64,000 nt of DNA from Nitrososphaera sp. (lineage in GTDB: Archaea; Thermoproteota; Nitrososphaeria; Nitrososphaerales; Nitrososphaeraceae), in the NCBI GenBank assembly GCA_039938515.1, contig JBDUUL010000020.1:1-64000 (forward strand), in the 5' to 3' direction. A program made the translations under genes and the position numbers. Shown one piece after another: positions 39,789 through 51,422 of the stretch; positions within the stretch are counted from its first letter, which is position 1; each line of letters begins with the position of its first letter. Under the pieces are notes generated by a model. The model was not told the origin of the DNA, made no database searches, and saw only the letters and a program-made list of their open reading frames with translations.

Positions 39789-40025
39789 TTATTCTATTTC
39801 AGATTGGATCTCTGACATGCGGCGCCTCAGGGCCTCATAGTAGGGAATTATCTGATAGATTGTCTCTACGCTCGAGACAAACATCCTTCTGCAGCAATAC
39901 CGCTTGATGCCGATAGAGTCCATAACCTTTGCAGGATCCTCGCCAGCTTTTACGCGGATAGAGTACTGCTGAAACCTGTCTGCGATGAGGCCTCCACAAG
40001 TAAAACACCTGACAGGCACTAGCAT
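39789..40025 (-). CDS. rpoN: RNA polymerase subunit N (Rpb10-like)
   Basis: A 78-residue zinc-binding subunit of archaeal RNA polymerase. The signature is MLVPVRCFTCGG at the start (Cys-x2-Cys) and KRYCCRRMF further on (Cys-Cys), the unusual zinc-bundle arrangement of Rpb10. I use the ATG at 40025, which gives the standard family start; another ATG nine bases earlier is possible. First gene of the cluster, with its own TATA box. Confidence 0.95.
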   Translation of the reverse strand: MLVPVRCFTCGGLIADRFQQYSIRVKAGEDPAKVMDSIGIKRYCCRRMFVSSVETIYQIIPYYEALRRRMSEIQSEIE

Positions 40026-40050
40026 TGCTTGCATTTACATTTCACCCTGC

Positions 40051-40059
40051 TAATAAAAA
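40051..40059 (-). promoter_or_regulatory. TATA box of the rpoN-eno-rpsB cluster
   Basis: TTTTTATTA on the minus strand, centred 30 bases before the ATG at 40025. It lies close to the left edge of the integrated element, so the element has not cut the promoter. Confidence 0.5.
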
Positions 40060-40177
40060 CGCTTGGCGGTGGGCGAAGGCCCGATTTCCTTGAATGCAAT
40101 CTCGCATTCCCCAATAAATTATAGATACTGTGACATATCTCCCCTAAAATACGACCTCAGAGCATTAATTACAGTCA

Positions 40178-41311
40178 ATGACTACCGCAATTGACGAACC
40201 GCTATTAAATTCTGCCGCTTATAGTAATTTCGTAGACTCCATAAGAAGCCCATTCAGTCTCAGACTTTACAGCAAGGCTCTTCAGCGATACATGAGATTT
40301 CACGGTCTGACAGATTTTGACGCTATGGCTGCCGAGGACGCAAAGACGATTCAAATAAGGGTCCAGGCGTACATCTCGGAACTTCGATACAAACGGAACC
40401 TAAGAGCTCAAACCATAATTGTAAACCTTTCAGCGATTATCCATTTCTACCAATACAATGACGTTATCGGCGTCAACTGGAAAAAGCTAAAGGCGTTCTG
40501 TGGAGAGAGAAAAAGGGCAGTTAAGGACCGAGCATATACTATAGATGAAATTCGCAAACTCCTAGATCATGCTGACGACAGAAAGAGGATAATGATTTTA
40601 CTCATGGCATCCGCGGGGCTGCGCATAGGCTCAATTGCGGACCTGAAAATCAGGAATCTAGAGCGCATAAGCGGACTATACAAGATAATGTTGTACGAGG
40701 GGGCGGATGAGGAGTATTTTACATTCTGTACGCCTGAGTGCGTGGCGGTTATTGACCTATACCTAGAGAAAAGAAAGCGTGCAGGCGAGGATCTGACGCC
40801 TGATGCTCCATTGATAAGAGAGGAATTTTCACGGTCGGACGCAAGGAATCCGAGACACGTGTCAACAACTACCCTGAATACACTGATGAAAGGGCTCCTA
40901 GTTACAGCCGGCATTCGCGAGACTAAAGGTTACAGTAGTCGCAAGCGACACGACGTAATGGCGAATCATGGTCTACGAAAATTCTTCAACACTCAGCTGA
41001 TCAAAGCCGGCGTAAATCACACGGTGAAGGAACACCTAATGGGGCATAAAACGGGATTAGACATCTCTTATGCTAGGCTCACAGACGAGGAAATAACCCG
41101 CGAATACCTAAAAGCCGCCGACCTTCTCACGATCGAAAGTGAAAGCAAGCTCAGGTCCGAGATCCGAGATCTGGAGAAGAAGCTGAGCGCCGAAGCCAAA
41201 CTGCGAGAGAAAATTATGTCTGAAATTGATGCGAAGAATAAGCCTCTGCTCGACCAAATGGCGGAAATCCAGGAGCGCCTTAACAAGTTCCCTAAGCTTA
41301 GGCTAGACTAG
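40178..41311 (+). CDS. Tyrosine recombinase/integrase, complete
   Basis: A 377-residue integrase. The N-terminal SAM-like core-binding domain covers about residues 15-110 (SLRLYSKALQRYMRFHGL). The catalytic residues are Arg149 (SAGLRIGSIADLK), His264-x-x-Arg267 (NHGLRKFFNTQL), His290 (GHKTG) and the probable nucleophile Tyr298 (DISYARLTDEE). A coiled-coil tail of about 55 residues follows (KLRSEIRDLEKKLSAEAKLREK), typical of thaumarchaeal integrases. It is intact, unlike the relic at 8979-9398, so the element may still be mobile. Confidence 0.93.
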   Translation: MTTAIDEPLLNSAAYSNFVDSIRSPFSLRLYSKALQRYMRFHGLTDFDAMAAEDAKTIQIRVQAYISELRYKRNLRAQTIIVNLSAIIHFYQYNDVIGVNWKKLKAFCGERKRAVKDRAYTIDEIRKLLDHADDRKRIMILLMASAGLRIGSIADLKIRNLERISGLYKIMLYEGADEEYFTFCTPECVAVIDLYLEKRKRAGEDLTPDAPLIREEFSRSDARNPRHVSTTTLNTLMKGLLVTAGIRETKGYSSRKRHDVMANHGLRKFFNTQLIKAGVNHTVKEHLMGHKTGLDISYARLTDEEITREYLKAADLLTIESESKLRSEIRDLEKKLSAEAKLREKIMSEIDAKNKPLLDQMAEIQERLNKFPKLRLD

Positions 41312-41384
41312 AGCCTCAGCGGACTATACTTATTATACATTTATGAAGGAGAAATTCACGCTCAATTTGTGAAGGCACCACATA

Positions 41385-41392
41385 TTATATTT
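41385..41392 (+). promoter_or_regulatory. TATA box of the element cassette
   Basis: TTATATTT centred 25 bases before the ATG at 41414; it would drive the small zinc-binding gene and the two genes after it as one leaderless transcript. Confidence 0.6.
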
Positions 41393-41413
41393 TTGAACTT
41401 TACAAAATAAACC

Positions 41414-41536
41414 ATGTCCGAATGCGTAGCAATAACAGGTGATATACAGGCGGACTTTTTGCGTCAGGTTAGCAAGATGCTACAGCATATCGAAAACTGC
41501 GAGCGTTGCCGCGAGCATTTCGGCGCAGTTCAATAG
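41414..41536 (+). CDS. 40-residue protein with zf-HC2-like His-Cys-Cys motif
   Basis: An ATG at 41414, 25 bases after a strong TATA box, opens a 40-codon frame. Its second half reads MLQHIENCERCREHF: His25-x3-Cys29-x2-Cys32 plus His35, the arrangement of the zinc-binding anti-sigma (zf-HC2) motif. It ends 7 bases before the next gene. It is probably a small regulator of the cassette; no sigma factors exist in archaea, so the partner is unknown. Confidence 0.6.
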   Translation: MSECVAITGDIQADFLRQVSKMLQHIENCERCREHFGAVQ

Positions 41537-41543
41537 TGTAGAG

Positions 41544-42623
41544 ATGGTTAATTACAAAATGGGTCTCACTGCAAAAATTTTTGTTACTGATAGTCAAATC
41601 TTGAAGGGTAGACCAGTCCCAGATCTTTCTCGAAAAAGTATACCAAATGCCGATTTAGTACAGAATGTCCGATCTAGCGAAATTGAACAGCTAGCCTTGG
41701 AAAAATATCAGAAAAACGGTAGTGGTATAACATTTGTAAACTTGATTGAAAGTGGGCTTGCTACGAGCAAGTCGAAGGCTCAGGCGATGCTAAAATATCA
41801 TTCAAATCGTTCTCTGGTGCTTTTCACCATACCTGATAAACGTACAAAACCTCAACAGTATTATCCGTCATCGTTAAAAGCCGAAATTGTCACTAGAACT
41901 ACACCAATTCGCCCCACGGGGGTATTCTACTTTGATCACGAGCATAACCAAGATGCCTTATGCGCTGATACGTTGCTTGATCCAGTAAGGGCTAACACGC
42001 TTATCGAGTATGCTTTGCCGCTCCTAAAGGACGCACCGCTGCATATCCATAACATACACTTTAAGCTATGTCTGCCTACTGAAACGTATCCAGCTCTAAA
42101 AGCCGATATTGTAAATGGTAACAAGGGTAAGCAGTGGAAGATTCCTGTAGGCTATAGAAGCGTCAAGTTATCGTTCTATCCTTCTGGCTCGCTCGAGATC
42201 GTCGTGGTTTGTTCTAGACATGCTTTCCCGCTAGTTTCAGAGAGTCATAGGACCGAGCTAAATGCGTTCCTAGGCGAAGTTAGAGGCGCGCTTTCCGTCA
42301 TTCTGCACGACGAGAGACATCACATCATTCCAGCTATCAGCGATTGGCTAGTCACGCAGTTAGACATCAATAGGGACGTTTCAATATCGAGCTGCAAAGT
42401 CAGCGATTTACAACTGAACCACTCTGAACAGTATCGATACTACGATAACGTTTTCAGGGTGTATCTTAAGCCAATCAATGATAAATTATTCTATAGGTTT
42501 GAGAAGACTGTTAATCCCAATAAACCGTACGGAGAGACTATCGCCGAAGCGTTCACCTTAGAGGGACTTAACAAACGGTTAATCGCGCTGGAAACGTCAA
42601 AGGGTAAAGAGGGTATGACATGA
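41544..42623 (+). CDS. Unrecognised element protein with possible N-terminal HTH
   Basis: A 359-residue protein from the ATG at 41544; the same frame is open upstream to 41439, but that part overlaps the small zinc gene. Residues about 44-108 (SEIEQLALEKYQ...FVNLIESGLATSKSKAQAMLKYHSNRSLVLF) could be a winged helix. The rest is mixed alpha/beta with a VFYFDHEHN segment, a HERHHII-like DERHHIIPAI segment and no catalytic motif I can name. Its TGA overlaps the next ATG (ATGA), so the two are translationally coupled. Position right after an integrase suggests a replication or regulation role; inference only. Confidence 0.7.
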   Translation: MVNYKMGLTAKIFVTDSQILKGRPVPDLSRKSIPNADLVQNVRSSEIEQLALEKYQKNGSGITFVNLIESGLATSKSKAQAMLKYHSNRSLVLFTIPDKRTKPQQYYPSSLKAEIVTRTTPIRPTGVFYFDHEHNQDALCADTLLDPVRANTLIEYALPLLKDAPLHIHNIHFKLCLPTETYPALKADIVNGNKGKQWKIPVGYRSVKLSFYPSGSLEIVVVCSRHAFPLVSESHRTELNAFLGEVRGALSVILHDERHHIIPAISDWLVTQLDINRDVSISSCKVSDLQLNHSEQYRYYDNVFRVYLKPINDKLFYRFEKTVNPNKPYGETIAEAFTLEGLNKRLIALETSKGKEGMT

Positions 42624-43225
42624 GCGATATTCCTGCAAACTCTCCCGAAATTGAAAGCGTCGATCCAGCATTAATGCAAGGCGCTAACCTGATCAAACCT
42701 ATGCAGAAATTCTCACCATATACCAAGGCAGAACGGCATAAGCGCCGCAAGGAGGTCTTTAGGCTTCATTTCGAGTATGGATATTCGGCTAGCAAGATTT
42801 CAGAAATAATGAAAGTCAGTAGAGGGACCATTAATTCAGATATCAGATTTCTATACGCCCAAACGCGAAAGACTGAAGGAACAACTACTTTCGACGAGGA
42901 CATGCGTAGATATCTTGTACGACTCTCCATTCAGCAAGCTCGCCTACGCTCCTATCTAGACAAGGCAACGGACCTTGAAACCAGGCTATCTATAGAGCGA
43001 CTTATGGCTGAACTAGATCTTCGGCTTGTAAATGCGGGTTTGAAGATCCTCGATTCCAGGCTTGCGTTCTCTGAAGCAGTAGCAAATGCGGTAAACCAAA
43101 TCGCGGAGAAGGAGAAAATCGATCGGCGTTACATGCTGCCGGACCAGCAATTCAGTATTTCCAAAAAGGCTTGGTCCGAAATTGAGCATATAATAGAGAA
43201 GGACCGACATGGTGGAGAGCTATGA
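42620..43225 (+). CDS. Helix-turn-helix protein, terminase-small-subunit-like or regulator
   Basis: A 201-residue basic/helical protein. Residues about 41-75 are a helix-turn-helix: RRKEVFRLHFEYGYSASKISEIMKVSRGTINSDIRFLY. A helical region follows (YLVRLSIQQARLRSYLDKATDLETRLSIERLMAELDLRLVNAGLKILDSRL) suited to oligomerisation. This layout is shared by phage terminase small subunits and by plasmid/phage regulators; no large terminase is seen nearby, so a regulator is as likely. It is coupled to the gene before it by a 4-base overlap. Confidence 0.75.
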   Translation: MSDIPANSPEIESVDPALMQGANLIKPMQKFSPYTKAERHKRRKEVFRLHFEYGYSASKISEIMKVSRGTINSDIRFLYAQTRKTEGTTTFDEDMRRYLVRLSIQQARLRSYLDKATDLETRLSIERLMAELDLRLVNAGLKILDSRLAFSEAVANAVNQIAEKEKIDRRYMLPDQQFSISKKAWSEIEHIIEKDRHGGEL

Positions 43226-43398
43226 AAAATCCGGAATTAGCCTATTGCGAGTACTTCGGCAGGCTCGCTTAAACTACGGAACAAAAAATTCGTCTAATCG
43301 GGAAACTAGTAGAGGGACACAAACTGACTTTCGATCTTAATAATAAAAGCATATGGGAGATGCCATTTTCCTTTCTAGGTATTATGATCCAGAGCTAG
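43222..43398 (+). pseudogene. Short frame with an internal stop (16 + 41 codons)
   Basis: An ATG at 43222 overlaps the stop of the HTH gene (ATGA) and reads 16 codons to TAA at 43270-43272. The same frame continues without another stop for 41 codons (TTEQKIRLIGKLVEGHKLTF...) to TAG at 43396. The residues after the stop look like ordinary protein (amphipathic, charged), so the gene may be broken by one point mutation, or only the 16-residue peptide is made. Confidence 0.35.
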
Positions 43399-43595
43399 GA
43401 CAAAAATTGAAAGTAATAGCTTGGGGAATAAGCGTTCCAATAGGTAACGCAAACCACATGTTCCAAAGACAAAAAAACGAGAGAGGAATTTCCTTTTGGA
43501 TCGACGTCTGTAACCGCCAGATATCGGAGTGGACAAAAATATTTGGTGAACTTGATGCCGAAATTGTGAAAGTTAATGTGAGAAGGAGTACCTGA
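43353..43595 (+). CDS. Unrecognised 80-residue element protein
   Basis: ATG at 43353 opens 80 codons (MGDAIFLSRYYDPELGQKLKV...). It has a compact alpha/beta look with Trp and Tyr residues and no known motif. It overlaps the end of the broken frame before it in another phase. Coding is plausible, not proven. Confidence 0.45.
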   Translation: MGDAIFLSRYYDPELGQKLKVIAWGISVPIGNANHMFQRQKNERGISFWIDVCNRQISEWTKIFGELDAEIVKVNVRRST

Positions 43596-43687
43596 GATAG
43601 TTGAGCCTAAATACCACAAGCAAGATTTCGTAGCTCGTTTTTAAGTAAGGTACTCACAATAAGTAAAAGTCAAGGAAGGTTCAATCA

Positions 43688-43996
43688 TTGAGAGACGAAA
43701 TTAAGGATGATGAATTTTATGAGCGGAACCTGGCTCAGTTAAATGATAAGGACAGCATCACATTTGCCAATACCACCAGTTTCTACAGGCGCGGCTACAA
43801 AGAGCCAACGCCAAAGGAGACAGTAATACAGGCTAGATCAAAACTGGAGCAATACCTAGGACAATTCGCAGATACCAGTGATCCTCGGATAGATACCTAT
43901 GGAGTTCTTTATGACTTGGCGAAGGGTTTTGTGCAAGCTTATCAAAGGGAACACCCAAAGGCAAAGATAGACCTCCGCCGCAAGACCTTTTGCTAA
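43688..43996 (+). CDS. Unrecognised 102-residue acidic/basic element protein
   Basis: Starts at TTG 43688 with GGAAGG about nine bases upstream. The protein is charged throughout (RDEIKDDEFYERNLAQLNDKDS at the start, a helical middle TVIQARSKLEQYLGQFAD and a basic end). No membrane segment or motif is seen. Confidence 0.5.
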   Translation: MRDEIKDDEFYERNLAQLNDKDSITFANTTSFYRRGYKEPTPKETVIQARSKLEQYLGQFADTSDPRIDTYGVLYDLAKGFVQAYQREHPKAKIDLRRKTFC

Positions 43997-44073
43997 AGTG
44001 AAAATACTCTGGAAGATTAGAAGAAAGACTTCGCTGAGGAGCTCGTATTACAGCCAGCGAACTAGTATTCCTT

Positions 44074-44322
44074 TTAGTCGTAAAACCCAGTGTTCTCTTG
44101 CAGTTTGCGAAGCGCTTTGTGCTCGTAGTAAGCGAACTGCGAAATAATAAACAATCCCAGCCCAGACACGAGAAGACCAGCCTGAAAGAGAGCATCCGAG
44201 CCAGTTGGAAATATTCCATCAATTTTACCGCCAGCCCAAAACAGAAACGCTGCGTAAATCGTGCAGAACGCTCCATAGCCTAGCGGTATAACTGGATGCA
44301 GGCTATACTTCCTCAATACCAA
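44074..44322 (-). CDS. Small two-helix membrane protein
   Basis: An 82-residue protein starting at TTG 44322, about 22 bases after an AATTAATAAG TATA-like tract on the minus strand. Hydrophobic helices lie at about residues 11-31 and 42-64, followed by a charged cytoplasmic tail (YYEHKALRKLQENTG). Function unknown; small membrane proteins recur in this element. Confidence 0.6.
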   Translation of the reverse strand: MVLRKYSLHPVIPLGYGAFCTIYAAFLFWAGGKIDGIFPTGSDALFQAGLLVSGLGLFIISQFAYYEHKALRKLQENTGFYD

Positions 44323-44372
44323 GTTAACAGTGTCTAACCTTATTAATTTCTCGGTAGGTAAATCCGCTGGCT

Positions 44373-44504
44373 ATGAGGAAAAGATGTCCAAAGTGCAAAC
44401 ATGACATGCGGATAATCAAAGAACTGAAGGATGGCAAAGAGCAAAAAATATGGGTGTGTAACCGTGGATGCTCTGTCGAAGAATCTCGCATTCCAGTTGA
44501 ATGA
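44373..44504 (+). CDS. 43-residue zinc-ribbon protein
   Basis: ATG at 44373 opens 43 codons: RKRCPKCKHDM at the start (Cys5-x2-Cys8) and WVCNRGCSVEE further on (Cys29-x3-Cys33), a minimal zinc ribbon with a strand-turn between (KELKDGKEQKI). A long frame on the opposite strand overlaps it, but only this one carries a recognisable structure. Confidence 0.6.
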   Translation: MRKRCPKCKHDMRIIKELKDGKEQKIWVCNRGCSVEESRIPVE

Positions 44505-44529
44505 AGCTTTTTCCAGTCTGCCGCAGCAG

Positions 44530-44537
44530 TATTTAAT
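44530..44537 (+). promoter_or_regulatory. TATA box of the trypco2-like gene
   Basis: TATTTAAT about 31 bases before the ATG at 44565. Confidence 0.45.
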
Positions 44538-44564
44538 TTCGAGCATTTGAACTGACCAACTGTC

Positions 44565-44888
44565 ATGGAACTTCAGGACTTCGTTATGACTACACTCGTT
44601 GAAATTGTAAAAGGCGTAAAAAATGCAAATGATGCAATAGAAGAGACTGACAAGTTTCAATTTATCGGGGAAAAAGTTCCTGACTATTATGGACAATTTG
44701 TTGATTTTGACGTCTCTGTTGCCGCCAGAGATAAGGATGAAAAGGGCGGTTCGGTCAAAGGGGGAGTTTATGTAATAGGCGCTTGGCTTAGTGGTTCTGC
44801 AAATTCCAAGCAAGAGAAAGCTTCGGAGAATGTCAATCGAATAAAGTTTCGAGTCTTCGTGAAGTCAGACGATATTGAGTCGGAATGA
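44565..44888 (+). CDS. Small protein resembling trypsin-co-occurring domain 2 (trypco2)
   Basis: A 107-residue protein. A first helix (MELQDFVMTTLVEIVKGVKNAND) is followed by a beta meander: VDFDVSVAARDKDEKGGSVKGGVYVIGAWLSGSANSKQEKASENVNRIKFRV. The pattern 'VEFDVAV...GG-x-x-V...S...NRIKF-V' matches a widespread small prokaryotic family that I associate with trypco2 domains, found near conflict-related proteases and ATPases. The match is from memory and untested. It precedes the OLD nuclease by 400 bases on the same strand. Confidence 0.6.
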   Translation: MELQDFVMTTLVEIVKGVKNANDAIEETDKFQFIGEKVPDYYGQFVDFDVSVAARDKDEKGGSVKGGVYVIGAWLSGSANSKQEKASENVNRIKFRVFVKSDDIESE

Positions 44889-44925
44889 AATCCTCCCGCC
44901 GCAGCCTTCGGAGCAGCATGACTAA

Positions 44926-45093
44926 AGAGCCAGTTTCGACCTGATAGACTGCCTAAGCATTGGAATAGACGAAGACGGAGAAAGCGTCAACTATGCACTA
45001 TTTGATTTTGACGGAAACGAGTTGTCAAGCTCAAGTAGTTCCTATAGCGGTGCGGAGTATGATACGCCTAGTGGCGCGGTGTTCGATGATTGA
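44926..45093 (+). pseudogene. Start-less coding-like fragment
   Basis: A frame of 55 codons without any usual start ends at TGA 45091-45093. It reads like the acidic C-terminal end of a protein (SIGIDEDGESVNYALFDFDG, then a serine run and EYDTPSGAVFDD). It probably is the remaining 3' end of a decayed gene. The surrounding stretch 44889-45302 otherwise holds no convincing gene. Confidence 0.35.
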
Positions 45094-45302
45094 GCGAACT
45101 TTGTACACGTTGTATGCGATAGTAATTTGGGTTAGCGGGGGAATGGCAACGCAAACTGTTGAGGGCATGAATACAAACGTCTACCAAACACGCTCAGATA
45201 GCCGAATAACGAGAGAAATCTGTCCGCGATGCTGTAGAGGATTATAATTTAGTTGATCGTTGCTACTAGTATAGAAAACTCGATAAAGTTTATAGAAGTA
45301 GC

Positions 45303-47336
45303 TTGCGTACTAGCCCCCACTTGCGCCTAGCAGATTTTAGAGTCACTAATTTTCGCTCAGTTGTAGATTCCGGAGTTATTACAATGTCTGACATAATGGT
45401 AGTGATCGGTCCAAATGAAGCAGGCAAGAGCGGAATCCTAAATGGATTGGCATCCTTGTCTATGGACGCCTTCTATGCCTACTTCGATCTAACTCAGTTA
45501 GAGGGAATGCTCAAGAGATACAATGACAATGAGATTGAGGACAAAGACATCCCTATGGTTCATGCTAGCTTCGAGCTCGCTCCAGAGGAGATTAAAGAGC
45601 TCGGCAGCCTATTGCAACTTGCTGAAGAACCGAAGAAAATAATGATTACGAAATATTTTGATGAGTCTTATCAGATCAAGATTTCAGACAAAGCAATCCG
45701 CGTCATATCTAGAGCGAAAGTTAATGACTTGATGAGTGAAATGCGCAGAGTGATCGCCAATCATAGAAACAGCGCAACTAATACTCATCTCACACACGCC
45801 CCTAACGATGCAATGAGAGCCCAATTCAATTCCGCCGCTGCAACCGTGGAAAATGCAAGCCCAGCGCAAACTGTGAAGTCAGTTGCCTTGAGTAGTTTGC
45901 AGGAGATTACAAACTTGTCCAATGCGGCTATCGACGCCCCGTTCAAGACAGATCTTGTTGCATTTGCGAGAGAGCTGCAATCAATTATGGAATCTTTTAT
46001 GGAGGATGAAATTGCAATTGCAATGTACAAGTTCGTCCTTGAGCGAATGCCGAGAACCATATACTTCAAGACATGGGATAGACTCGAGGATGAAGTAACA
46101 ATCGCTGAACTTAGGGCTAATCCTCAAAAACACAAAACTTTCATTAACTTTTTGAAGCTAGCTCAAATTAAACTAGATACTATCGAGTATCTGCAGGACG
46201 AAACCAAAAGGCAGGTTTATCTGGAAAGTGGTTGTGGCAGGGCGACAAAGTTGCTTAGAGGAGCTTGGAGACAAGAGGAGCTCGATATGGAACTTCGCTA
46301 TTCAACTGAGAAATTGATGGTATTCACAAAGAATTCTGCCGCAGTCGAGACATTACTCCCGCCCAGCCTTGGGAGTGAAGGCTTTCAGTGGTTCTTAGGA
46401 TTTTTCATTAACTTCGGCGCAGAGACGAATTCTGAATTCAAAAGGGCGATTCTATTACTTGATGATCCGGGGGTATTCCTCCATCCAAAAGGGCATAAAG
46501 ACTTGCTGGACCTTTTTGAGTCATATCTAGGAAATGGCGTTACGACAATCTACACAACCCACTTACCATTTCTCATCCCACGTTCGAAGCTAGAACGGCT
46601 GAGATTAGTCAGAAAGAAAGGCGCTGGATACACAGAAGTTACCGAGAAATTTTATGCGATCGAGGATAAAGATGTATTATACCCACTCCGTGCTGCGTTG
46701 GGTGTTTCGCTCGGAGATAGCCTCTTTGTTGGAGAGAAAACGATTGTTGGAGAAGGTCCTTCAGACCGAATTTTGCTTGACGGCATGCTCCAAGAATTCA
46801 ATAGCCGAAAAATTAGGAAAATAGATTTAGAGCACATAAGTGTGGTTGCAGGCAAAGGGGCACGCGGCGCAAAAGAATATGCGCTATTATTGCAAATCGA
46901 GAATCTTCCTTATGTCGTGGTCCTCGATAACGACGATGAAGGGAGGAACGCGAGTGCAGACTTTCAAAAGGATGGAATTCCCACTAGTAATGTAATTTTG
47001 CTTTCGAATCACAGAGGCGTTCAAGCGGACTTAGATATCGAGGATCTATTTCCTTTAGAAACATACGCGGAGGCGTTCCACTCAGTTCACGGGAAATCGC
47101 TTAATCTAAGCAAAGTAGATGTCCTGAAGGCAATATCTGAAGGCAATGGAAAGGTTACTAACAAGGGCAAATCTTTGCTCAAGACCTCAAAGTACGACCT
47201 CGATAAAGTCAAAATTGCATACGAGATGTTGAGAATCACCAATTCCTTAACTCAGCTCGACCAAGCATTAGTGGAAAATTTGTCAAAGATTTTTGACGGA
47301 ATAAATTCAAGAATAGCAATATACTCGAAAGAATAG
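45303..47336 (+). CDS. OLD-family nuclease: AAA/ABC ATPase fused to a TOPRIM domain
   Basis: A 677-residue protein. The N-terminal RecF/SMC-like ATPase shows FRVTNFRSVVDSG, Walker A GPNEAGKS (36-43), and the signature/Walker B part LLLDDPGVFLHPKGHKDLL near residues 383-400, with the switch His in TIYTTHLPFLI. The TOPRIM nuclease domain has GEGPSDRILL near residue 481 (the Glu), the acidic pair in VVLDNDDEG near 538 and a Lys-rich C-terminus. This is the class 1 OLD layout; no UvrD-like helicase (GajB type) follows, so it is not a typical Gabija pair. OLD proteins act in phage defence. The start TTG at 45303 gives the complete first strand. Confidence 0.88.
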   Translation: MRTSPHLRLADFRVTNFRSVVDSGVITMSDIMVVIGPNEAGKSGILNGLASLSMDAFYAYFDLTQLEGMLKRYNDNEIEDKDIPMVHASFELAPEEIKELGSLLQLAEEPKKIMITKYFDESYQIKISDKAIRVISRAKVNDLMSEMRRVIANHRNSATNTHLTHAPNDAMRAQFNSAAATVENASPAQTVKSVALSSLQEITNLSNAAIDAPFKTDLVAFARELQSIMESFMEDEIAIAMYKFVLERMPRTIYFKTWDRLEDEVTIAELRANPQKHKTFINFLKLAQIKLDTIEYLQDETKRQVYLESGCGRATKLLRGAWRQEELDMELRYSTEKLMVFTKNSAAVETLLPPSLGSEGFQWFLGFFINFGAETNSEFKRAILLLDDPGVFLHPKGHKDLLDLFESYLGNGVTTIYTTHLPFLIPRSKLERLRLVRKKGAGYTEVTEKFYAIEDKDVLYPLRAALGVSLGDSLFVGEKTIVGEGPSDRILLDGMLQEFNSRKIRKIDLEHISVVAGKGARGAKEYALLLQIENLPYVVVLDNDDEGRNASADFQKDGIPTSNVILLSNHRGVQADLDIEDLFPLETYAEAFHSVHGKSLNLSKVDVLKAISEGNGKVTNKGKSLLKTSKYDLDKVKIAYEMLRITNSLTQLDQALVENLSKIFDGINSRIAIYSKE

Positions 47337-47420
47337 GCTAAGAATTTCAAAGGAGAGCAAAGGAAAAAGCTTGAAATGGACATGACAAGGTTTACAATTT
47401 CACGGTATGAGAAAAGTTTG

Positions 47421-47798
47421 TCACTGCCCAACGACAAGGAAAATATACCTTATGTAGACTGTAAATGCAATTGTGACAGTAAGCATGATTACGCCTACAA
47501 CTGTCATTATAGTACAGAATTTGAACCGCGTCTCGTAAGAGCTCTTTCTGGAAAATGCTCCGATGACCGAAGTTGAAAATGCTCCAAATGACATCACGGT
47601 GCTAGCAAGCGTCGTCCATTTCATCCATTCCTGAAGCTTGGCGTACCAGTCTACATTATGGCTAATTGGCTCCAATGCAAGAATGAAAAGCATCGCTCCC
47701 ATGAGTACGCCATCTAAGACTAGAAGGTCTTTTAGGTCAACATCAATATCCTTTTCATCTTTTTGATTATCCTTCGACCGGGGATGAAACAAGGACAC
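47421..47798 (-). CDS. Three-helix membrane protein
   Basis: A 125-residue protein starting at GTG 47798. A charged N-terminus (KDNQKDEKDIDVDLKD) is followed by three hydrophobic helices at about residues 28-46, 62-85 and 96-121. It lies convergent to the OLD nuclease, 85 bases from its stop. No motif; it may be unrelated or a membrane partner. Confidence 0.6.
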   Translation of the reverse strand: MSLFHPRSKDNQKDEKDIDVDLKDLLVLDGVLMGAMLFILALEPISHNVDWYAKLQEWMKWTTLASTVMSFGAFSTSVIGAFSRKSSYETRFKFCTIMTVVGVIMLTVTIAFTVYIRYIFLVVGQ

Positions 47799-47845
47799 AG
47801 CCCGTTATAGCGTTCGAAATTTAAGGTCATCGTGACTTAGCTTAT

Positions 47846-47990
47846 CTATTCCAGCCGTCGCAAACGAGTGTATTTCTTTCCTTTATCGGTTACCAAGTCC
47901 CATGCTATAACGTCGCCTATCTTGTAGCCTAGCTCCTCGACTAATTCAGGAGGGTCTACTGACTCTTTTTGAGAGATGTGATCTGTAAAA
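47846..47990 (-). pseudogene. AbrB/MazE-like C-terminal fragment
   Basis: In the minus strand a frame without a start codon ends at TAG (47846-47848) and reads ESVDPPELVEELGYKIGDV then IAWDLVTDKGKKYTRLRRLE. The 'PPELVEELGxKxGDVIxW' strand-helix-strand is the core of AbrB-like and small phage swapped-hairpin proteins. Its 5' part is missing or lies in another phase under the membrane gene 47946-48269, so a frameshift relic is likely. Boundaries at the 5' side are approximate. Confidence 0.4.
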
Positions 47991-48269
47991 GTAAACCCGA
48001 AAGTAGCCAGCCAAAGCCATCCCCAGAATGACGACCGGAATGACTATTGAAAATCCTGCATACGTGATCATCAATTGAGCCTCCGATGGCAACTGACCAA
48101 GATGGTTTCCGAATAGTATGATCTCCGTCGGCGCAAGTGGCGAAAATCCTCCTGAGAAGAGGCTCACAAAACCGATTATATACGCAGCAAGATACCAAGA
48201 TCCTGTAACATCTTGTTCTGAACGAAAACTCAAGATTAGGCGACAATACTTCAAATATTCATGATTCAC
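47946..48269 (-). CDS. Small membrane protein (two to three helices)
   Basis: A 107-residue frame from GTG 48269, with hydrophobic segments at about residues 22-41, 48-56 and 70-92 and a basic end (YRSHLSKRVSRPS). The helix pattern supports this frame over the one overlapping it in another phase. Its 3' end overlaps the AbrB-like fragment. Confidence 0.5.
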   Translation of the reverse strand: MNHEYLKYCRLILSFRSEQDVTGSWYLAAYIIGFVSLFSGGFSPLAPTEIILFGNHLGQLPSEAQLMITYAGFSIVIPVVILGMALAGYFRVYFYRSHLSKRVSRPS

Positions 48270-48279
48270 TTGTTTGAAT

Positions 48280-48645
48280 ATGAGCGCACGCCTGAGCTCT
48301 ATGCTAGCCGTTTATTCAAGCCTTGAAGCTACTATTGAAAGGACTAGGCAAATCTACACCTCACAGCATCCTGATTTGGTTTGGAAGGGAATATGGAAAG
48401 GCGAAAGGCTTGAGAAGGATTGGTTCAGAGAGCGTCCTGATGGTGGCATTATACCTCAAGCAGGAAGAGTTTTCAAGGAAAATGGCGAGATGTATTTTGA
48501 CATTTTTTATCAGATTATTGTTGAGTTAGTGGACTTGGCAGATATGGGAAGAACCTCCGAGGATTTCAAACAGCTTGTTGATGCTCTTAGAGGGCAAGGG
48601 ATGGGCTTGGGTTCAAAAGCAAAAATCAACCAATCATTCACGTAA
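48280..48645 (+). CDS. Unrecognised 121-residue element protein
   Basis: ATG at 48280 (the frame also offers TTG at 48274). A helical start (ARLSSMLAVYSSLEATIERTRQIY) is followed by a Trp-rich middle (VWKGIWKGERLEKDWF) and a helical end (FDIFYQIIVELVDLADMGRTSEDFKQLV). No membrane helix and no motif I know. It diverges from the membrane gene with about 10 bases between starts, which leaves little room for separate promoters. Confidence 0.55.
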   Translation: MSARLSSMLAVYSSLEATIERTRQIYTSQHPDLVWKGIWKGERLEKDWFRERPDGGIIPQAGRVFKENGEMYFDIFYQIIVELVDLADMGRTSEDFKQLVDALRGQGMGLGSKAKINQSFT

Positions 48646-48772
48646 GTTTATTGGTAGTGTATCTCCCCAAACCTGAAAGTTGAAACTAGTGGCTCGATAA
48701 GTTAGCGCTCTTTCGCTTGCTCTAGTGCTTTCACGAGCAAGCCGAGCCTAGAAAAAGGAGAGACCTGAGCGC

Positions 48773-48943
48773 TTAACGCCCTTTAGCTTGGTCCCGTAAG
48801 CGTTTGCAATTGTTTTCGAGTTGTTGATGCCAGTGGGCATCCAAGTAATCTTGCTTATTCAGTGCTTTTCGCTTAAGCTGTCGCTCTTTGAGCACACAAC
48901 TGTTTTGCCAAAAGTCTGAGGATATGGTCCGGTGCTTCGCCAT
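48773..48943 (-). CDS. 56-residue basic protein
   Basis: ATG at 48943 (minus strand) opens 56 codons: MAKHRTISSDFWQNSCVLKE, then a helix rich in Arg, Lys, Gln and His (RQLKRKALNKQDYLDAHWHQ) and a basic end. A TATA-like CTTTTAAGAG centred about 29 bases upstream (48967-48976) supports it. Its amino-acid composition is that of a small nucleic-acid-binding or regulatory protein; unknown family. Confidence 0.5.
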   Translation of the reverse strand: MAKHRTISSDFWQNSCVLKERQLKRKALNKQDYLDAHWHQQLENNCKRLRDQAKGR

Positions 48944-49089
48944 ACAACATAGTCTATTGTCGATATCTCTTAAAAGGTTTATGGGCTGGTGGGTATCACG
49001 TTCAAAATCTCCGCTAGGTCACCGACGGGTCGGCTCTCTCGAGATATCGCGAGTCCAAAATCCGGAGCGAGTCAGAACTATTTCAAGCA
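48944..49089. other. Gap in the element without a recognised gene
   Basis: With 48646-48772 this leaves two short stretches around the 56-residue protein that hold no clear gene. The sequence around 49000-49070 contains GC-rich inverted segments (gtcaccgacgggtcgg; ctctcgagatatcgcgag). Confidence 0.3.
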
Positions 49090-49791
49090 TTGACGCAGAC
49101 AGCGGCTGACAGACTGACGATTGAAGAACTGCAAATATCAGCCCAACGAGTGGACGATTATTTCCCCCTTTTCCTTTTTTGGTGTCAAACTTTTAAGAAA
49201 CCCTGCAAGCTGTCGGATTACTTGTCAATTAACGACGCAAGGAGAGAAGCTGTCAGTATTGCATATTGGATGCTTGCAGCGACTGCATTCTTCACAGTTG
49301 GAGGAGCGCTACTAGCGGTCGGACTTAGCTACCCTTTCGGAGCAATACCAACCATAGTAGAAAAGGGATATGGGAATCAGACAGAAGCCAGCCAAGCTGT
49401 ATTGCGTGTGTATAATGCTCTCGGTTCCATCGCCAATTATGACATCGGAAGCGGACTCGGGCTAATTGCGTTAGGTGCATTCTTAGGAGTTTTTGGTCTT
49501 AAAAGAGTGAGAGGTGGTATCGAGGCATTAGCTAACCCCAAGAGTATGAAAGATAACATAGAATCAGTCGAAGACATGCTCAAGAATCTTGACGAGTCAT
49601 TTGGAAGCCATTATAGTGCAGAGAGGCTGCTAAAAGATGCGTTATACCAACATGCCAGAATAACGATAGCAACAACAAAGCAGGTCTCGGATTCTTCAAA
49701 ACGCTTAGAAAAATTTACGATTGCTCTCGTTGCTCTGACTATAATTTTGGCAGCAGCTGAAATCGTGCGAATAGCGACTGGTCACAACTAA
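49090..49791 (+). CDS. Membrane protein with cytoplasmic helical domain
   Basis: A 233-residue protein from TTG 49090. Residues 1-55 are soluble (TIEELQISAQRVDDYFPLFLFW), helices lie at about 57-80 (MLAATAFFTVGGALLAVGLSY), 120-137 (GSGLGLIALGAFLGVFGL) and 213-230 (FTIALVALTIILAAAEIV). The section between the second and third helix (about 140-210) is a charged helical region that may be coiled coil. No known family. Last gene of the element before tRNA-Leu. Confidence 0.65.
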   Translation: MTQTAADRLTIEELQISAQRVDDYFPLFLFWCQTFKKPCKLSDYLSINDARREAVSIAYWMLAATAFFTVGGALLAVGLSYPFGAIPTIVEKGYGNQTEASQAVLRVYNALGSIANYDIGSGLGLIALGAFLGVFGLKRVRGGIEALANPKSMKDNIESVEDMLKNLDESFGSHYSAERLLKDALYQHARITIATTKQVSDSSKRLEKFTIALVALTIILAAAEIVRIATGHN

Positions 49792-50040
49792 ACCGCAGCA
49801 GATCAAGTCTACATTGATTTCTCCCGCCGCACATTGCTTTTCGAAATCGGAAAATTTGATACTTGCTTAAGACCTTATCGACATGCGAATTGTAAAGGCT
49901 AAAATCAGACTAGTTGTAAATACTACCTGCCGACGCACCAGTTATTTCGTTTTCAGACAAATAAATCGCATTAGCATTATATAGTCAGCGACACTAGCAC
50001 ACGCCGGGCAACTAGGGGAACAGGCCAACTTGGCGCATGA

Positions 50041-50075
50041 TTACCCGCGTTCGTTTCACCGAAATGACGCGGTAA
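50041..50075. repeat. Imperfect inverted repeat at the element/tRNA-Leu junction
   Basis: TTACCCGCGT (50041-50050) and ACGCGGTAA (50067-50075) pair with one bulged C. The inside repeats the symmetry with TTTC/GAAA around ACC. The right arm runs into the tRNA-Leu TATA box. It could be a terminator hairpin, a protein-binding site or a recombination arm site. Confidence 0.6.
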
Positions 50076-50082
50076 TATTTTA
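50073..50082 (+). promoter_or_regulatory. TATA box of tRNA-Leu
   Basis: TAATATTTTA centred 25 bases before the tRNA 5' end. Confidence 0.55.
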
Positions 50083-50101
50083 CGCCAGCCGAGCAAGTTA
50101 T

Positions 50102-50189
50102 GCGGGAGTCGCCCAGCTTGGCCAAAGGCGTAAGACTGAGGCTCTTATCCCTTAGGGGTTCGTGGGTTCAAATCCCATCTCCCGCACCA
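50102..50189 (+). tRNA. tRNA-Leu(GAG)
   Basis: A class II tRNA: acceptor GCGGGAG/CTCCCGC, anticodon stem TAAGA/TCTTA with loop CTGAGGC (anticodon GAG, Leu CUC/CUU codons), a long variable arm (TCCCTTAGGGGTTC), T-arm GTGGG-TTCAAAT-CCCAT, discriminator A at 50186 and an encoded CCA (50187-50189). The other two tRNA genes in the window lack an encoded CCA. Confidence 0.95.
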
Positions 50190-50273: not shown

Positions 50274-51422
50274 ATGGAATATCTTGCAATGCTTCCCGGA
50301 CCAACTAACGTTCCAAACCGTGTAATGAATGCAATGCTTGCGCCGATAATTAATCACAGGAGCGATGATTTCAGGGTGCTCTACAAATCAATAGTTGAAA
50401 AGTCGCAAAAGGTGTTTCAGACACAGGGCGACATTGTTCTCCTGACCACTTCTGGCACCGGCGCAGTCGAGGCATCCGTCGTCAACCTCATAAAGAAGGG
50501 CGACAAGGCCGTAATTCCAGTAAACGGCGAGTTTAGCACAAGGCTGGCTGACCTGATTGACAGCTGGGGCGGCCAGACAATCAGGATAAAGGCACCATTT
50601 GGGGAAAACCCGCCTTATGAAAAATTTGAAGAAGTCATGGACCAAAATAAAGACGTCAAGGCGCTTTACGCGGTCTATAACGAGACTTCAACCGGCACGA
50701 CGATCCGCTATATGGATAAGCTCGGCGAACTGGCTGCAAGAAAAGGCTGCTACTTTATCGCTGACGCGGTGTCAATCCTTGGAGGCGACGAGCTCCCCGT
50801 TGACAAGTGGAACATTGACATCTGCGTTACAGCTGCGCAAAAGGCCCTTGCTGCGCCGCCTGGCGTATCGCCGGTTTCCGTAAACGCCAGAACCAAGAAA
50901 TACATGCAGGAAAATCCGCCGCCGACTCAGTACCTGAACTTTAAACGCTACTTCAAGTACTACGAAGAACACCATGAAACGCCGTTCACTCCGGCGCTGC
51001 CGCTTTACTATGCGTTCAGAGAGGCACTTGACATCGTGCTTGAGGAGGGCATGGACGCAAGAATTCGCCGCCACAGGACTTGTGCTGAAGCGCTTTACGC
51101 CGGCCTTAGCGCGCTTGGGCTTACGCCTTTCGCGAAGCCGGACGCAAGGAGCAACGTGATAATAGCCGTCAATTACCTGGCGGGGATGGATGACAAGAAG
51201 TTCAGGGATCTGCTCTCAAACCAGTTCAAGGTGCTTATTGCCGGCGGCTTTGGCGACCTGAAGGGCAAGGTATTCAGGGTTGGTTCGATGGGTGAGGTTG
51301 GAAGGTACCATGTCATGCGCACCATATCTTCAATTTCGTCTGCAATGAACATGCTTGGCATAAAGACAAACCCAGAGGCTACTTCGGTAGCGCTTGAAAA
51401 ACTAAAGGCGCTTCCGAACTAG
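50274..51422 (+). CDS. Class V aminotransferase (serine-pyruvate/alanine-glyoxylate type)
   Basis: A 382-residue PLP enzyme. Near the start LPGPTNVPNRVMNAM and HRSDDFRVLY are family signatures; TTSGTGAVEASVVNL binds the cofactor phosphate, ADAVSILGG carries the PLP-binding Asp, and the Schiff-base Lys is in TAAQKALAAPPG near residue 200. It interconverts serine or alanine with pyruvate or glyoxylate; the in vivo pair is not decidable. First core gene right of the element. Confidence 0.92.
   Translation: MEYLAMLPGPTNVPNRVMNAMLAPIINHRSDDFRVLYKSIVEKSQKVFQTQGDIVLLTTSGTGAVEASVVNLIKKGDKAVIPVNGEFSTRLADLIDSWGGQTIRIKAPFGENPPYEKFEEVMDQNKDVKALYAVYNETSTGTTIRYMDKLGELAARKGCYFIADAVSILGGDELPVDKWNIDICVTAAQKALAAPPGVSPVSVNARTKKYMQENPPPTQYLNFKRYFKYYEEHHETPFTPALPLYYAFREALDIVLEEGMDARIRRHRTCAEALYAGLSALGLTPFAKPDARSNVIIAVNYLAGMDDKKFRDLLSNQFKVLIAGGFGDLKGKVFRVGSMGEVGRYHVMRTISSISSAMNMLGIKTNPEATSVALEKLKALPN

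Follow-up and report, generated by a model that had tools for sequence, protein, structure and literature searches.

The window, that is the whole 64,000-nucleotide stretch of DNA that was analysed, lies on contig C20 of a 2.56-Mb genome in 24 contigs. Between rpoN and tRNA-Leu(GAG) it carries an island of roughly 10 kb, whose first gene, on the plus strand, encodes an intact tyrosine recombinase and whose right edge lies before tRNA-Leu(GAG). The GC content was 43.8% inside the island (40.0-50.0 kb) as compared to 52.8% elsewhere in the window. Segments of 10 kb outside the island spanned only 49-55%, and the drop is confined to the element. The genes of the island and its two flanks are as follows.

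39789-40034, minus strand: rpoN, archaeal RNA polymerase subunit, left flank; the TATA box of its promoter (about 40050-40060) is retained
40178-41311, plus strand: tyrosine recombinase (integrase), 377 aa, Pfam PF00589
41439-42623, plus strand: proposed rolling-circle initiator, 394 aa, with a predicted N-terminal winged helix and TBP-like domain and Rep_trans-type motifs
42620-43225, plus strand: HTH protein, weak sigma-70 region 4-like HTH, 4-bp overlap with the preceding gene
43353-43595, plus strand: open reading frame of 80 aa, unmatched
43688-43996, plus strand: open reading frame of 102 aa, unmatched
44074-44322, minus strand: open reading frame of 82 aa, putative membrane protein (by eye)
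44565-44888, plus strand: open reading frame of 107 aa, unmatched
45303-47336, plus strand: OLD-family ATPase-TOPRIM nuclease with Walker A and TOPRIM motifs
47421-47798, minus strand: open reading frame of 125 aa, putative membrane protein
47946-48269, minus strand: open reading frame of 107 aa, putative membrane protein
48274-48645, plus strand: open reading frame of 123 aa, unmatched
49090-49791, plus strand: open reading frame of 233 aa, putative membrane protein
50102-50189, plus strand: tRNA-Leu(GAG), intact, right flank

The integrase scored 47.8 bits against PF00589 (Pfam cut-off 27.1) and all of its catalytic residues (R, HxxR, GH and Y) are present, in agreement with the original prediction that an intact recombinase opens the island. 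The gene order integrase, initiator, HTH suggests a single transcript. The genes of the island had been described as short and unrecognised, which holds for the many unmatched open reading frames but not for the OLD-family nuclease or for the initiator-like gene that follows the integrase. The OLD protein lay above the Pfam cut-off for both PF13175 and PF20469, matched the PADLOC Old model at 1.3e-23 and was matched to PDB 6p74. It resembles OLD-family nucleases in combining a Walker A-containing ATPase with an OLD-like TOPRIM domain and departs from them in that no GajB-like UvrD helicase was found among the annotated neighbours of the gene; it is probably defence cargo. Searches with Pfam, PADLOC, PHROGs and NCBIfam returned no capsid, terminase/packaging, conjugation or casposase genes in the island, and the claim that known capsid and conjugation genes are lacking was thereby upheld.

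The site of insertion was evaluated by comparison with congeners, in which rpoN on the minus strand lies next to, and is divergent from, tRNA-Leu(GAG) on the plus strand. The site is empty in six of them (G005, G006, G007, G008, G010 and one contig of G011), with about 80-125 bp from the matched rpoN end to the matched tRNA-Leu end. This gap contains the rpoN TATA box TATAAAAACC and, at the position of the tRNA promoter, the conserved motif AATATTCAAATTAGCG. In the window, TATAAAAACC is kept in slightly altered form at about 40050-40060, while the tRNA-Leu promoter motif of the congeners has become the degenerate TAATATTTTACG within 50060-50101, meaning that the promoter was altered either by the element or by a later change. 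Based on the retained TATA box at one end and the degenerate motif beside the tRNA at the other, the element entered within a few bases between the two divergent promoters. The insertion into the rpoN/tRNA-Leu gap is real and the six congeners represent the true empty site, which, together with the drop in GC content, confirms the integrated element of about 10 kb that had been predicted between these two genes.

The usual insertion place for elements of this kind is the 3' end of a tRNA gene. The island, however, is found on the 5' side of tRNA-Leu, between two divergent promoters, and a classical tRNA insertion was ruled out as the left end contains no duplicated piece of a tRNA. Vertical inheritance, in which relatives would have the same genes at the same place, was not seen, the identical gap in G002 being occupied by a 9.1-kb insert (L033:1850-10940) that has none of its proteins in common with the island; an identical element in relatives was rejected on the same account. 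The tyrosine recombinase of the G002 insert is split, and it is accompanied by a transposase, by cupredoxin-like proteins and by what on inspection by eye is an AbiE-like gene pair. Smaller inserts of roughly 0.1-0.8 kb were observed in the gap at L034, L035, L036 and L040 (G001, G016, G017 and another contig of G011). These inserts and that of G002 indicate that the gap tolerates insertions, and the space between the divergent promoters seems to receive insertions repeatedly. G017, G002 and G001 are the closed genomes among the congeners. Separately, the block that ends in eno-rpoN-tRNA-Leu (about 29400-50226 of the window) is inverted relative to its neighbours, giving an order unlike that of all congeners compared, with one inversion breakpoint between tRNA-Leu and an aminotransferase gene at 50274.

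Direct repeats and hairpins at and within the ends of the element gave the following candidates.

40062-40068, no strand: 7-bp candidate for the left att core (CTTGGCG), not significant by itself, adjoining the point where similarity to the empty sites stops
50029-50035, no strand: candidate right att core CTTGGCG
48691-48748, no strand: hairpin of -14.5 kcal/mol, the strongest within the element and a candidate origin
50031-50086, no strand: second strong hairpin, -13.9 kcal/mol, by the tRNA and absent from the empty sites; possible element end or attachment structure

Related genomes had been expected to reveal exact att repeats along with the empty site. The empty site was found, whereas the best-placed att candidate is the 7-bp repeat, which is not above chance given that 8-bp end-to-end repeats arose in 76 of 100 shuffles. 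Long att repeats at the island ends were rejected, none being above chance. The two hairpins are both candidate origin or attachment structures, and across 16 sister loci no common origin hairpin was seen at a constant position. The want of a significant att repeat would be explained if the island were dead, that is formerly mobile and now fixed with decayed att sites and kept for its OLD nuclease cargo, a state that the altered tRNA-Leu promoter beside the element and the inversion breakpoint just past tRNA-Leu would also suit. Such a fixed island is nevertheless unlikely, as the integrase, the proposed initiator and the OLD nuclease all have complete frames and motifs, and very short att sites are common in these archaea, some measuring as little as 8 bp (PMC6563490).

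The gene that follows the integrase (first ATG at 41544; residues are numbered from 41535) had no meaningful match in Pfam, NCBIfam or PHROGs. Relatives were nonetheless present in 22 of 70 Nitrososphaeraceae genomes. Of 400 genomes of the class, 28 contained the family when a 16-member profile was used, and five of the 28 belong to two other families of the order; relatives outside Nitrososphaeraceae were more distant than those within. Linkage was analysed at 42 loci that were picked by the initiator gene alone and then checked for an integrase. An integrase was detected at 22 of the 42, a count in which the loci are not fully independent as several come from one genome. It was located upstream on the same strand in 21 of these 22, at distances ranging from overlap to 5.1 kb, L170 being the sole exception. 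Many of the loci at which no integrase was detected are short contigs; L083, L084 and L085 are long enough yet also show none. Integrase and initiator distances were correlated (Mantel r 0.36, with 4 of 5000 permutations equally high), indicating that the pair is partly co-inherited.

Several of the sister pairs start immediately downstream of the 3' terminus of a tRNA gene. In the sister element L168 (L168:7499-18692, genome G026), 11,120 bp are bounded by an att repeat, the final 17 bp of tRNA-Ile recurring without mismatch; in this element the integrase comes first and is overlapped by the initiator gene. In L090 an imperfect copy of the tRNA-Ala end occurs about 11.06 kb further on. The pair of integrase and initiator forms the recurring core of an element family in ammonia-oxidising archaea, and the remaining genes, the OLD nuclease included, are cargo. 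A second, distant pair was observed in the source genome itself, by tRNA-Arg(GCG) on contig C1 (L118:7862-11233), and pairs were also observed in another family of the order (f2) at L162, L163, L165 and L166.

Sequence collections (IMG/VR and others) were scanned for relatives of the initiator using a closer subset of the 16-sequence alignment as query. No relatives of the integrase or of the initiator were returned from IMG/VR, and for the initiator none were returned from phage records either. A free plasmid was considered and rejected, the initiator having no match in PLSDB. The original prediction had allowed for a satellite, and a virus satellite or reduced provirus would fit the small size of the island and its several short open reading frames without homologues. 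These scans, and the fact that no structural or packaging family was significant, make this very improbable. Thus an integrated, plasmid-like element is retained from that proposal, while the satellite is set aside for want of any virus-derived or packaging gene.

The predicted fold of the initiator was investigated further employing AlphaFold2 models built from seven sequences. The model consists of a winged helix (residues 44-92) followed by a TBP-like domain (residues 165-326) in the form of a curved sheet of two similar halves, at a modest confidence of pLDDT 58.5 for the window protein and 70.6 for the cropped domain of the relative L097. In a Foldseek comparison with the PDB, the best 37 of the 50 matches listed were TBPs, with E values of 4e-5 to 3e-3. 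The best of these had an E value of 4.3e-5 and a probability of 1.00, with low TM-scores and moderate model confidence. The 50 PDB matches listed included no RepDE-type structure, and viral Foldseek matches included giant-virus TBPs and an inovirus protein.

Four conserved motifs were found in the TBP-like domain. H172, which lies in the domain's first strand, was present in 40 of 40 sequences, and the first position of D277-x-N279-x-D281 was D or H in 38 of 38. In R308-x-Y310-x-K312 the tyrosine was conserved in 36 of 38 and the lysine in 37 of 38, R308 being frequently Q, while both R321 and E323 of R321-x-E323 were found in 37 of 37. In L163, L165 and L166 of family f2, the D277-x-N279-x-D281 motif begins with His instead of Asp. 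The conserved residues of the initiator family correspond to D46, D142, Y191, K193, R212 and E214 of RepDE, in which D46, D142 and E214 are metal ligands, Y191 is the nucleophile and R189, K193, R212, A144 and D146 are further conserved residues (PMC4797284). Top structural matches to transcription TBPs and a winged helix in the model would also be expected of a DNA-binding regulator that controls transcription of the element through these two domains and has no nuclease activity. For a TBP, however, a match of conserved polar residues to a nuclease site in four separate motifs would be needless. Moreover, the cellular TBP is encoded by a separate gene in the source genome, and the TBP profile PF00352 had no Pfam match to the initiator and gave an hhalign probability of 0.1, the weakest comparison tried with the initiator family. 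A regulator is therefore quite unlikely.

Unsupervised profile alignment with no motif input placed the four motifs in register with inovirus Rep_trans at a probability of 0.3, which is not significant; hhalign comparison of the family with Rep_trans or Rep-Arvir was likewise non-significant (probability 0.3). As a control, the accepted pair of Rep-Arvir and Rep_trans was also non-significant and lower still (hhalign probability 0.04), meaning that sequence scores cannot decide on homology to Rep_trans. Proof of this homology at the sequence level was accordingly rejected. PF02486 and PF25227 gave nothing above cut-off in the 70 Nitrososphaeraceae genomes, while the positive controls for PF25227 scored 362 bits (HHPV3) and 385 bits (HRPV3).

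The island is in our reading an integrated plasmid-like element of about 10 kb, and the gene next to its integrase most likely encodes a rolling-circle initiator; we place the probability of this reading at about 0.68. It is based on the predicted fold of a winged helix and a TBP-like domain, and on near-invariant residues that match four Rep_trans motifs, and it makes the protein a parallel to bacterial Rep_trans and archaeal Rep-Arvir. A reasonable alternative, given that MOBT relaxases belong to the same superfamily, is that the TBP-fold protein is a mobilisation relaxase that nicks an oriT for a conjugative helper, making the island an integrative mobilisable element. Rep_trans does include relaxases of conjugative elements, among them MOBT of ICEs (PMC4797284; see also PMC6499999 and PMC9371924), and an integrase beside a nicking enzyme is the minimal plan of a mobilisable element as well. 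Motifs cannot separate a relaxase from a replicase, and both roles may coexist. A helper would be required, as the island is without transfer genes, and RepSNJ2, the archaeal relative with experimental data, drives replication (PMC13107129). We hold a relaxase to be improbable on balance.

For a rolling-circle initiator the following mechanism is proposed. The tyrosine recombinase would excise the element and later reinsert the circle. Origin binding would fall to the winged helix at the N-terminus, and Tyr310 of the C-terminal TBP-like saddle would cut one strand, the metal for nicking being held by His172, Asp277 and Glu323. The nick would leave a 3'-OH for the host polymerase, upon which the circle could be replicated and then reintegrated. 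We infer nicking, rolling-circle replication, an origin and present mobility for the element.

What is new is a candidate for the replication and signature gene of many such elements, identified from prediction and conservation, whose predicted fold and active site have escaped profile libraries. A marker gene overlooked by current profile libraries would allow such elements to be found and typed, and the proposed initiator would provide a concrete enzyme to test and a replicon for vectors. To our knowledge, ammonia-oxidising archaea have almost no genetic tools. Most of the mobile elements described in them are 'cryptic' and many are without an assigned replication protein (PMC6563490).

The 'cryptic integrated elements' were defined in Thaumarchaeota by Krupovic et al. 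2019 (PMC6563490). They are mostly <20 kb, have an integrase and are without capsid or conjugation genes; that study identified no class-specific signature gene among them and, for many members, no replication protein. The island resembles them in its tyrosine integrase, small size, mostly unassigned genes and empty sites in relatives, and in that signature genes of viruses, casposons and conjugation were not found in it. By the published definitions it belongs to the cryptic integrated elements, and the new class suggested in the original prediction is accordingly one that is already known. The island differs in that a recurrent candidate initiator is proposed for its family, that it is located between divergent promoters and that its att site is only a 7-bp candidate.

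RepSNJ2, the founder of Rep-Arvir, is a demonstrated rolling-circle initiator (PMC13107129, 2026). Rep-Arvir has a TBP-like fold related to bacterial Rep_trans, and RepSNJ2 gave a Foldseek pattern dominated by TBPs, as the island protein does; the main text of that report mentions neither Nitroso- nor Thaumarch- (PMC13107129). The island protein is similar to Rep-Arvir (PF25227/DUF7845) in being archaeal, in its predicted TBP-like fold and winged helix, in its conserved tyrosine and acidic residues and in its linkage to integrases of mobile elements, and kinship is in both cases visible through structure and motif only. Unlike Rep-Arvir, in which the catalytic domain comes first, it has the winged helix first and the TBP-like domain last. 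It also has His where Rep-Arvir has the first Glu, and it is below the Pfam cut-off for PF25227.

With Rep_trans (PF02486; pT181 RepD, inovirus RstA-like proteins and MOBT relaxases) the island protein shares a first-strand metal ligand, DxxxD, RxYxK and RxE with equal internal spacing, and its modelled domain, at moderate confidence, resembles their TBP-like fold (PMC4797284). It differs in having no PF02486 match, shorter spacing between motifs, an N-terminal winged helix and His in place of the first metal-binding Asp. The odds somewhat favour the initiator family being a third TBP-fold lineage of rolling-circle initiators alongside Rep_trans and Rep-Arvir, distinguished by a His in its metal site and by a winged helix at the front, and serving as the replication and signature gene of a widespread family of integrated plasmids in ammonia-oxidising archaea for which no such gene had been assigned. 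If true, this would strengthen the case for an old line of TBP-fold initiators common to archaea and bacteria.
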